This document shows positions 34,978 through 53,110 of a stretch of DNA of 64,000 nt, piece after piece (positions within the stretch are counted from its first letter, which is position 1; each line of letters opens with the position of its first letter). Made by a program: the position numbers and the translations under genes. Location of the stretch: the NCBI RefSeq assembly GCF_900176885.1, contig NZ_LT839648.1, positions 3,570,039 to 3,634,038 of the forward strand, given 5' to 3'. The notes below the pieces were generated by a model, which saw nothing but the letters and a program-made list of their open reading frames with translations, made no database searches and had not been told where the DNA came from. The stretch comes from Oceanobacillus senegalensis (GTDB lineage: Bacteria > Bacillota > Bacilli > Bacillales > Amphibacillaceae).

Positions 34978-35005
34978 AGAGGTAAGGAAAATTTTCCTTA
35001 CCTCT
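34978..35005 (-). terminator. Attenuator terminator of the ZTP riboswitch
   Basis: A 28-base perfect inverted repeat (AGAGGTAAGGAAAA and its complement), followed on the minus strand by TTTGTGTT. It directly follows the TGGGCA end of the aptamer, so formation can compete with the ligand-bound aptamer. Confidence 0.85.
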
Positions 35006-35074
35006 GCCCAGGCGAACGGCATAATTCTATCCATGTGCTCCCTCGCGGTTATCCGCGTCTCGCCAGTTACACAT
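35005..35074 (-). ncRNA. ZTP (pfl) riboswitch upstream of serC
   Basis: The minus strand shows the hallmarks of the pfl/ZTP motif. P1 is ATGTG...CACAT (35074-35070 with 35037-35033), and ACTGGCGAGA follows the 5' arm. P2 is CGCGG-ATAA-CCGCG, followed by AGGGAGC. The conserved 3' part is TGCCGTTCGCCTGGGCA. GGCG of the first strand can pair with CGCC of the last as the known pseudoknot. ZTP and ZMP signal folate shortage, and serine is the main one-carbon donor, so control of serCA makes metabolic sense. Assignment is from memory of the consensus; covariance-model scoring was not possible. Confidence 0.87.
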
Positions 35075-35279
35075 AGCACTTAAATTTTATTTAACCGTAA
35101 CAAATTTTCTAATTATTTTCAACCTCTAATTAGAAATTAATTTAAACTTATTAATACGAAAGTACTTTTTAGACTTTAATTATATAGTTGATAGAATTGC
35201 TTAATAATTAAAATAGTGGCAAATGGTTTATTACTTTATTATAGTGAAGGTAAATATGAAAATAAATGAGGTACTGTAA

Positions 35280-40266: not shown

Positions 40267-40295
40267 TTGACCAAATACATAATAATTGGTATCCT
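40267..40295 (+). promoter_or_regulatory. Promoter of the glycine riboswitch transcript
   Basis: TTGACC, a 17-base spacer and TATCCT, about 75 bases before the aptamer. The -10 match is moderate. Confidence 0.5.
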
Positions 40296-40369
40296 ATATT
40301 TGTTCTTTTTTAAAAAAATAATAATATTAATAGCTATGAATCTTGTGGGTAAAACTACAAAAGGAGCAG

Positions 40370-40455
40370 CTTCTGGAGAGACCGAATGATTTCGGCGCCG
40401 AAGGATTCACAATCTCAGGCAAAAGGACAGAAGAGTATACATTTAAATACTCTTG
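40370..40455 (+). ncRNA. Glycine riboswitch, single aptamer with 3' ghost-like hairpin
   Basis: P1 CTTCTG/CAGAAG (40370-40375 with 40428-40433) encloses the glycine-aptamer consensus elements GGAGAGACC, GGCGCCGAAGGA and CTCAGGCAAAAGGACAG. Only one full aptamer is present. A separate 8-bp hairpin (AAGAGTAT/ATACTCTT, to about 40455) follows, as in singlet glycine riboswitches that keep a ghost aptamer stem. It controls the UPF0237-UPF0210 operon. Confidence 0.93.
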
Positions 40456-40463
40456 TTCTATTT

Positions 40464-40498
40464 GAGATTGGTAGCTAAGACCAATCTCTTTTATTTTC
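40464..40498 (+). terminator. Terminator of the glycine riboswitch expression platform
   Basis: GAGATTGGT pairs with ACCAATCTC, then TTTTATTTT. Its 5' arm (TGAGATTG, 40463-40470) is perfectly complementary to CAATCTCA inside the aptamer (40410-40417), which predicts that glycine binding frees the arm and favours termination. Confidence 0.85.
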
Positions 40499-40521
40499 TA
40501 ATATTTGAAGAGGTGACAAAC

Positions 40522-40797
40522 GTGAAGAATAAACGTGCAGTAGTAAGTGTTATAGGAAAAGACCAGGTAGGTATCATTGCAAATGTAACGAATGTATTAT
40601 CCAGTAATGAAGTAAACATTTTAGATATAAGTCAGACCATCATGCAAGACTTTTTTACGATGACGATGATAGTTGACGTCACTGAAATACAAGATTTAGG
40701 TCATTTACAGCAGCAATTTGATGAGGTAAGTGAGGAAATAGGATTGGAAATAAACATTCAGTTAGAAGAAATCTTTCAAGCCATGCATCGAGTATAG
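40522..40797 (+). CDS. UPF0237 ACT-domain protein
   Basis: 91-residue single ACT domain, a fold that binds amino acids. VSVIGKDQVGIIANVTNVLS near 7-26 is the ligand-binding ACT loop. Its partner in many bacteria is the UPF0210 gene that follows here after 27 bases. It starts at GTG 40522 with AGAGGTGA upstream; the open frame extends back into the riboswitch terminator but that is not coding. With a glycine riboswitch ahead, glycine or a relative is a plausible ACT ligand (inference). Confidence 0.92.
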   Translation: MKNKRAVVSVIGKDQVGIIANVTNVLSSNEVNILDISQTIMQDFFTMTMIVDVTEIQDLGHLQQQFDEVSEEIGLEINIQLEEIFQAMHRV

Positions 40798-40824
40798 AGC
40801 TATTTTAGATAAGGAGAAGGCATA

Positions 40825-42186
40825 ATGAATATGGAATTAAATGAAATGATGGAAACGATACGAATGATCCAATTGGAAAACTTGGATATTCGTACGGTTA
40901 CAATGGGGATTAGTTTAGATGATTGTGCAGATTCTGATTTCAACCAACAAAAGGTGAAGGTTTACAATAAAATTGTTAACTATGCTGGTAACTTAAGAGA
41001 GGTAGCAGAAACTGTTGAAAAGGAATATGGAATTCCCATTATCAATAAACGTATATCCATCACTCCTATTGCGAATATATTAGGAGAGGCTACAAAAGAG
41101 CAAGCCATTGAATTGGCAAAAACATTGGATCAAGCAGCAATGACGCTTGGTGTGGACTTTATCGGTGGTTATTCCGCACTCGTGCATAAAGGAATGACAA
41201 AAGGGGAAGAAACACTGCTTGATGCACTTCCGGAGGCCTTAAGTCAAACGGAGAGGGTTTGTGCTTCTGTTTCTGTTGCTACGACGAGAACAGGGATTAA
41301 TATGGATGCAGTCCGCAGAATGGGGACTATTATTAAGAAGGCAGCAGAGCTTAGCAAGGATCAAAATGGTCTAGCTTGTGCAAAGCTTGTTGTCTTTTGT
41401 AATCCAGTAGAAGATAATCCGTTTATGGCAGGTGCCTTTCATGGAACAGGTGAAGGAGAAGTAGTCCTAAATGTGGGTGTCAGTGGTCCTGGTGTGGTTT
41501 TAAATGCATTGAAAAGGCATCATGAGGCCGATTTGGGAGAGGTTTCAGATGTTATTAAGAAAACAGCCTTTAAAATTACCAGAGCTGGTGAATTTATAGG
41601 TAGAGAAGTTGCTAAACGACTTCATGTTCCTTTTGGTATTATGGATCTTTCTCTCGCACCAACAAATGCAATGAATGATAGTGTTGCGGAAATTTTAGAG
41701 GAGATAGGGCTAGAGCGCGTCGGAACACATGGTACGATTGCCGCTCTTGCTTTGATGAATGATGCAGTGAAAAAAGGTGGTGCCATGGCGAGCTCGTATG
41801 TTGGTGGTCTAAGTGGTGCATTCATTCCGGTGAGTGAGGATAACGGGATGATCAAAGGGATTACGGATCATGCGTTAACATTGCCAAAACTAGAGGCGAT
41901 GACCTGCGTATGCTCTGTTGGCTTGGATATGATTGCTGTAACAGGCGATGCCTCAGCTTCCACACTTTCAGCATTAATTGCTGATGAGGCAGCTATTGGG
42001 ATGATTAACAAAAAGACAACAGCAGTCAGAGTTATTCCTGTTATAGGAAAAGAAAAGGGCGATATGGTAGAATTCGGTGGATTATTAGGTCGTGCCCCTG
42101 TGATGGGTGTTAATGGCTTTAGCTCCGAAAAACTAATCTCGCGTGGCGGACGAATTCCAGCGCCATTGCAAGCACTTATTAATTAA
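40825..42186 (+). CDS. UPF0210 (DUF711) family protein
   Basis: 453-residue protein of the UPF0210/DUF711 family, whose fold is related to glycyl-radical enzymes such as pyruvate formate-lyase but whose reaction is unknown. Features include [13 protein letters not shown] near the N terminus, [12 protein letters not shown] near 74, a [12 protein letters not shown] segment near 114, and a C-terminal [24 protein letters not shown] precedes the ATG. It is second gene of the glycine-riboswitch operon. Confidence 0.92.
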
Positions 42187-52759: not shown

Positions 52760-53110
52760 GAGGCTGGAACAAAACTAAAGTATTTAACTCAAAAGAAGAA
52801 CAACGCACAATTTAGCGGGGGAAATATACGTAGACTCCTTGAAAATAAAAACCAATTTTCTGCATGCGATGTTTCGCTGCCGAAGCGTTCCTTGTCCTGC
52901 GGGATGAGAGGCCTAGGTAAGACACCGTAGTGCGATAAGGAGCAAAGGCTAAGAACGGCCACGTCCTGTGGCAACGCCTTCATGACCAACATCGTGTTGG
53001 CCTGAAGGGGGATCATCAGCCACCCTAAGGTGCGCGAAGTATATTTCCGGAGCGGTTTTTATCCACCAATCGCGTTCGACTTAGGGAAAATACTTTTGTC
53101 CCAGTCTCAG
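52760..53110. repeat. Dispersed repeat, family 2 (long form)
   Basis: 351 bases bounded by GAGGCTGGAACAAAACTAAA and its rough inverse TACTTTTGTCCCAGTCTC. The interior includes GGGGAAATATACGTAGACTC, TTCCTTGTCCTGCGGGATGA and GCGCGAAGTATATTTCCGGA. The ends alone match the short copy at 42811-42951. Non-coding. Confidence 0.85.

Follow-up and report, generated by a model that had tools for sequence, protein, structure and literature searches.

A conserved glycine riboswitch, probably a type-2 singlet and predicted to be an OFF switch, in front of the UPF0237-UPF0210 gene pair of Oceanobacillus senegalensis

The glycine riboswitches closest to the element described here are the type-2 singlets, which likewise possess one Rfam-scored aptamer and a structured hairpin, the ghost, directly 5' of it; according to the excerpts at hand, 90% of them are located in front of transport genes (PMC6944388). 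For Streptococcus pyogenes, the available parts of the report describe the glycine riboswitch preceding a sodium:alanine symporter gene as an OFF switch, with glycine lowering expression through premature termination (PMC5829553), and glycine OFF switches of transporters are already known (PMC5829553, PMC11477304, both in excerpt). The glycine riboswitches of gcvT operons belong to the same aptamer family but carry the 3' strand of P1 within the terminator, which represents an ON design. In contrast to the type-2 singlets as excerpted, the leader presented here would control UPF0237-UPF0210 and not a transporter, and its P3 is very short, nearly invariant and predicted to double as an antiterminator strand. 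It further differs from the S. pyogenes switch, as far as excerpted, in the gene that follows and in its polarity, which is OFF by prediction here and by experiment there.

The leader is situated in a 64,000-nucleotide stretch of the Oceanobacillus senegalensis genome, hereafter the window, to which all coordinates refer; the leader and its genes lie on the + strand. The Rfam model RF00504 matches positions 40363-40440 at E 1.1e-7, its 51.5 bits exceeding the gathering score of 32, in agreement with the glycine aptamer claimed in a preceding sequence-only reading. It is a single aptamer, with one RF00504 match at the locus and no second within 100 nt in the Rfam searches of the window and of the organism's own genome. 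The aptamer is composed of P1 (40370-40375 with 40428-40433), P2 (40382-40385 with 40392-40395) and a short P3 (40397-40420), the helix pairs of which were counted in the leader alignment described below. Downstream, the terminator scan and the fold reveal one intrinsic terminator at 40464-40488, with 9 bp followed by TTTTATTTT, compared with an average of 0.1 in shuffled sequence. The P3 strand CAATCTCA (40410-40417) and TGAGATTG (40463-40470), which overlaps the 5' arm of the terminator, are exact 8-nt complements, as had been noticed from the letters alone. Complements of at least 8 nt arise by chance in 0.8% of 20,000 trials when the 10-nt arm is shuffled and in 0.1% of 20,000 trials when the aptamer is shuffled. 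Upstream, a consensus scan finds the promoter-like site TTGACC-17-TATCCT at 40267-40295 (9 of 12 matches, TG before the -10 element), which begins at the same position as the segment singled out by the sequence-only reading; shuffled sequence contains 2.6 such sites on average, a frequency that makes the site weak when taken alone. The window also contains a ZMP/ZTP riboswitch at 34999-35080 (- strand, 61.2 bits), about 5 kb from the glycine leader, and a Bacillaceae-1 RNA at 52933-53000 (+ strand, 74 bits).

Directly in front of the aptamer lies a hairpin with a kink-turn-like base (40333-40367). This base is formed by GC...GC (40333-40334 with 40366-40367), and in the alignment of 77 leaders GC on both sides encloses ATGA and GGA. 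Kink-turns have been reported for glycine riboswitches, and the base of the hairpin resembles this motif. The stem (40342-40348 with 40355-40361) is 99.6% paired, with four of the seven pairs changed on both sides. Since the 5' hairpin is kept in all 73 relatives' loci that bear the P3 motif and its stem covaries, the ghost is placed upstream of the aptamer, a position that matches the ghost of type-2 singlets in the accessible parts of PMC6944388. By hairpin position and covarying stem, the leader can probably be assigned to this class. A ghost-like hairpin had originally been proposed between aptamer and terminator. This candidate was rejected, because the hairpin found there (40425-40462) differs between species in length and sequence, whereas the 5' hairpin is conserved and covarying. 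According to the folds, the variable hairpin is predicted to belong to the antiterminator structure, in which it absorbs part of the 3' strand of P1.

When the UPF0210 protein was used to scan named genome contigs, 156 relatives were obtained, the best 80 of which (79-89% identity) were kept and represent the nearer relatives. The leader is conserved in front of UPF0237-UPF0210 in this sample, a comparison that the sequence-only reading had suggested: a motif search finds the short P3 in 73 of the best 80 loci. Among the first 30 of the 80, a whole-genome search places an Rfam match at the corresponding coordinate in 28 and misses L058 (Schinkia) and L066 (a MAG), the other 50 loci being judged by the P3 motif alone. 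The motif is absent from seven of the 80, namely L058, L066, L084, where the contig begins inside the leader, and four Gracilibacillus loci (L098, L104, L112, L116); in Gracilibacillus and a few other cases the gene pair is present without the switch. Within the same family as O. senegalensis, UPF0210 is present in 42 of 159 genomes, and 26 of the 41 loci examined carry the motif. The 15 loci lacking it belong to one genus (g15) in 14 cases and to another (g32) in one; this sample and that of the best 80 overlap.

The window, the 73 motif-bearing loci and three loci of a wider sample (L187, L188 and L190) were combined into an alignment of 77 leaders. Here the 34 pairs of kink-turn, ghost, P1, P2, P3 and terminator are paired in 98.8% of cells, and 12 of them display changes on both sides; 500 shuffles never attain these values, a significance that relatedness alone can inflate. 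Judged from comparative sequence data, the leader can be regarded as a genuine and conserved glycine riboswitch, with glycine as the presumed ligand, and the gene pair behind it is itself widely conserved. Around the 80 loci, no cluster of frames of at least 110 aa recurs in more than 19, apart from UPF0210, its antisense frame and frames spanning the leader; no constant neighbour points to a function, and no transporter gene is constant. Because the neighbourhood is otherwise unconserved while a UPF0237 match accompanies UPF0210 in all 192 stretches carrying it (overlapping sets), the switch is tied to the gene pair rather than to the genomic position.

Some leaders deviate from the common outline. 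In three loci of the Oceanobacillus group (L022, L031 and L068), several hundred bases separate the terminator from UPF0237; these intervening stretches are similar to each other and look like a dispersed repeat, and GAAGAG replaces GGAGAG in the aptamer. The leader L114:431-555, which belongs to the 73 motif-bearing loci, keeps ghost, P3 and terminator and displays a degenerate P1 and GGAGAG core, perhaps representing a decaying switch.

When the window RNA is folded before the 3' arm of the terminator is made, CAATCTCAGG pairs with TTTGAGATTG, enclosing the variable hairpin and disrupting P1; this structure includes the pairing of CAATCTCA with the 5' arm of the terminator. Of the 77 leaders truncated in this way, 75 favour the antiterminator over the aptamer fold, by a mean of 11.4 kcal/mol (the exceptions are L089 and L096). 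At full length, 73 of 77 still favour the antiterminator over the combination of aptamer and terminator, with a mean difference of 5.5. Readthrough is predicted to be the default, the OFF state being left to ligand binding and timing, which are absent from fold energies. The antiterminator is 95.3% paired, compared with 21-43% when slid, and all seven Watson-Crick pairs are formed in 51 of 76 distinct leaders and at least six in 70. No compensatory change is seen among the antiterminator pairs of the leader alignment, since the aptamer side hardly varies. The 5' arm of the terminator, GAGATTGG, is nearly invariant and matches the aptamer strand CAATCTC. Identity amounts to 94% in this arm and 53% in the linker, and the 94% of the 3' arm goes along with the former, as the two arms must pair. 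At the first base of the 5' arm, where the partner is T in 53 leaders, G is found in 40 of these and A in 8. As the terminator alone accepts A and the C of the aptamer asks for G, the retention of G is in line with the antiterminator, an argument which is weakened but not removed by G-T wobble.

The terminator has no nucleotide in common with P1 and is predicted to be able to form beside the folded aptamer, while the antiterminator would compete with the aptamer and break it. The coupling between P1 and terminator on full-length RNA is near zero (median -0.08; 7 of 76 below -2), a measure that does not separate the designs. Three leaders appear as exclusive in it (L086, L187 and L190), the terminator finder having picked an upstream hairpin in each; the GAGATTGG terminator is visible in their sequences. 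The aptamer of L114 escaped the pattern of the coupling script. In the proposed mechanism, the P3 strand CAATCTCA would pair downstream with the 5' arm of the terminator in the absence of glycine, part of the 3' strand of P1 would also be taken up and RNA polymerase would read through. With glycine, the folded aptamer would retain the P3 strand and free the 5' arm, upon which the terminator would form and UPF0237-UPF0210 would not be made. This is the direction which the sequence-only reading had predicted, and the computed preference for the antiterminator in truncated leaders supports it.

In the other five glycine switches of the same genome, 5-6 nt are common to P1 and terminator, which is the ON design, compared with none in the leader described here. 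Four of the five precede genes which we take, from their sequences, to be gcvT, glyA (with two switches in series) and an MFS-like gene. The fifth precedes a gene weakly matching PRK10578, and the one before the gcvT-like gene is a two-aptamer switch. The two serial switches before the glyA-like gene lie at locus L002 (G000:C4, about 3278.5-3279.1 kb), and each has an ON-type terminator of its own; one aptamer per switch is scored by Rfam, and the second was recognized by eye. One genome appears to use both ON and OFF glycine designs. The earlier description of the present polarity as opposite to the usual ON behaviour holds with respect to gcv switches and has to be narrowed with respect to transporter glycine switches, for which OFF behaviour is known. 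The preference for the antiterminator in 75 of 77 leaders, the conserved GAGATTGG arm and the ON design of the other five switches support the assignment as an OFF switch. On the strength of these computations, the leader is very probably a single-aptamer type-2 singlet glycine riboswitch and is predicted to switch off with glycine by transcription termination. That the leader RNA binds glycine, that it switches, and which way it does so in vivo are our inferences.

The same design is found elsewhere. Six other short singlets, picked for shortness from the glycine riboswitch matches in relatives' genomes, all display by eye a 5' hairpin, the core TTCACAATCTCAGG and a terminator arm containing GAG(A/G)TTGG, and Rfam confirms the six aptamers. 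Each of them precedes a permease-like frame, again as judged by eye. One of these permeases was compared with NCBIfam and matches best the D-serine/D-alanine/glycine transporter model (603.6 bits, below the cut-off of 732), which suggests that it is CycA-like.

Beyond the nearer relatives, RF00504 matches are found in 6 of 29 loci drawn from 299 sampled genomes of the class. Four of the six are L187, L188, L190 and L200, the last of which probably comes from the same genome as L097. The leaders of L187, L188 and L190 are the same as at the window locus, and that of L190 is by eye alike the Ureibacillus leader L086. In two other families the same gene pair is preceded by glycine aptamers with a longer P3 and other expression platforms: L194 and L195 (f157) score 65-67 bits, and strong matches of 72-73 bits are present at L201 (f157) and at L203 and L204 (f176), three of four further loci; in the fourth, L202, a motif search detects no glycine aptamer. 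By eye and fold these five leaders contain pairings that are merely suggestive of OFF polarity; the automatic test misread P1 in two of the five. At the 30 best-scoring UPF0210 loci of the phylum-wide sample, all from outside the class, there is no RF00504 match. On the sampled genomes, aptamer and gene pair appear to be associated only within part of the Bacilli. A pattern built from the aptamer strand and the terminator arm occurs at 17 places in 16 of 398 genomes of the phylum, and two of these places resemble the window leader by eye (in the organism's own genome and in G545); a reversed control pattern also matches a few genomes. A THF riboswitch located close to a clostridial UPF0210 gene was considered and gives no clue, as by eye it precedes a divergent transporter-like gene.

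In Bacillus methanolicus PB1 (L097), the UPF0237 gene with its switch lies beside divergent frames which we assume to be thiM-thiD-thiE-like, and a TPP riboswitch is located there (L200, probably the same genome as L097). For strain MGA3, a putative glycine riboswitch, listed as a 5'-UTR cis-element identified by RNA-seq, is recorded before BMMGA3_03000, whose function is given as unknown and whose number adjoins that of a (TPP)-thiD-thiE operon; the passages on this gene in the available parts of the report leave its family unnamed and contain nothing on polarity or conservation (PMC4342826). Since the pair of PB1 likewise adjoins thi-like genes and a TPP riboswitch, the BMMGA3_03000 entry very likely is this gene pair, the locus of which would already be in print under 'unknown function'. 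In the excerpts of PMC6944388, switches of Bacilli outside the gcv and transport groups are labelled glycine metabolism or Other, and the UPF0237-UPF0210 loci may sit unnamed in these classes. Our literature search found no paper joining a glycine riboswitch with UPF0210, UPF0237 or DUF711 and, in titles and the starts of abstracts, no functional study of the pair.

As the sequence-only reading had stated, the terminator is followed by an ACT-domain gene and a DUF711/UPF0210 gene, and the corresponding models score above their cut-offs. The first gene (40522-40797) starts with GTG after GAGGTGA and encodes a protein of 91 aa matching ACT_6 (PF13740, 1.8e-13) and PRK00194 (9e-34; 115.7 bits, cut-off 74), which we take to correspond to UPF0237. 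The second (40825-42186) encodes the UPF0210/DUF711 protein of 453 aa, with matches to PF05167 (7.5e-188; 624.9 bits, cut-off 25), PRK05313 (1.1e-219; 729.5 bits, cut-off 440) and the structure 2ha9 (4.1e-164). Clear relatives of the two proteins are the ACT domain protein 1zpv and SP0239 (2ha9), respectively, and the literature yielded no reaction for either. No Pfam match besides DUF711, and so no C-terminal radical-glycine domain, was obtained for UPF0210 at E up to 10, in a search whose HMMER filters drop most weak matches. An AlphaFold model of UPF0210, built from 21 sequences and of moderate confidence (pLDDT 63.5), matches 2ha9 with Z 33.2, followed by ranks 2-31 with Z 7.4-10.4 and a next match at 5.8. 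All of ranks 2-31 are ribonucleotide reductases or glycyl-radical enzymes, that is, members of the ten-stranded barrel superfamily; a few of these titles are ones that we take to denote glycyl-radical enzymes. The model supports a relation of UPF0210 to the ribonucleotide-reductase/glycyl-radical superfamily at the level of the fold, in keeping with the earlier suggestion, and does not support glycyl-radical chemistry. The excerpted part of PMC4390871 reports that no radical glycine was found in SP0239, and describes the protein as most likely not a glycyl-radical enzyme and as having no known function.

Two other readings of the switch have to be weighed. An ON switch like those of gcv operons, in which folding would block the terminator and the genes would be induced to remove glycine, could be expected from the description of glycine riboswitches before glycine catabolism genes as ON switches and from the ON design of the five other switches in the genome. 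It is extremely unlikely here, as P1 and the terminator do not overlap and the terminator can coexist with the folded aptamer, whereas an aptamer strand competes with the terminator via the antiterminator, with which the conservation of the GAGATTGG arm agrees. Alternatively, the RNA might have retained the glycine scaffold and come to bind another ligand, such as a glycine analogue or a product of UPF0210; the very short, almost invariant P3 would fit this reading, and so would the score of 51.5 bits when compared with 73 for the best aptamer of the genome. We consider this very improbable: conservation extends to the core columns, and the score lies far above the cut-off. Moreover, aptamers of this type are found in front of permease genes, the tested one of which is closest to the D-serine/D-alanine/glycine transporter, and in two other families UPF0237-UPF0210 follows aptamers that score higher.

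Given the preferred OFF switch, the pair could form a metabolic unit supplying glycine, or a one-carbon unit derived from it, and the ACT protein might act as a second sensor of glycine; this is a tentative proposal, separate from the confidence placed in the switch. Such a role, which the sequence-only reading had already suggested, may gain some weight from the permease genes found under the same switch design. A more specific version is rather doubtful: UPF0210 might be a non-radical member of the ribonucleotide-reductase/pyruvate-formate-lyase superfamily which makes glycine or the one-carbon unit under double glycine feedback, exerted by the OFF riboswitch and by a glycine-binding UPF0237 ACT domain. 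The permease genes can also be read differently, namely that the shared switch reflects uptake control and that the pair is a regulator or accessory of glycine uptake instead of a biosynthetic unit. This alternative is compatible with the OFF mechanism, and the ACT protein has weak similarity, far below cut-offs, to the ACT domains of GcvR, the glycine cleavage repressor, and PurU, a formyltetrahydrofolate deformylase. It nevertheless seems rather unlikely, as UPF0210 has the fold of an enzyme superfamily, 160 of its 453 positions are at least 98% conserved across 164 sequences (all from the phylum), which fits catalysis, and no transporter gene is a constant neighbour.

UPF0210 is widespread, being present in 234 of the 398 sampled genomes of the phylum, rigidly conserved and enzyme-like in its fold, and is without a known reaction. 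A conserved glycine switch of predicted OFF polarity, kept while the neighbouring genes change, points experiments to the metabolite that should be varied and to the direction of the change. The design of this switch would group the pair with glycine uptake, opposite to glycine breakdown.
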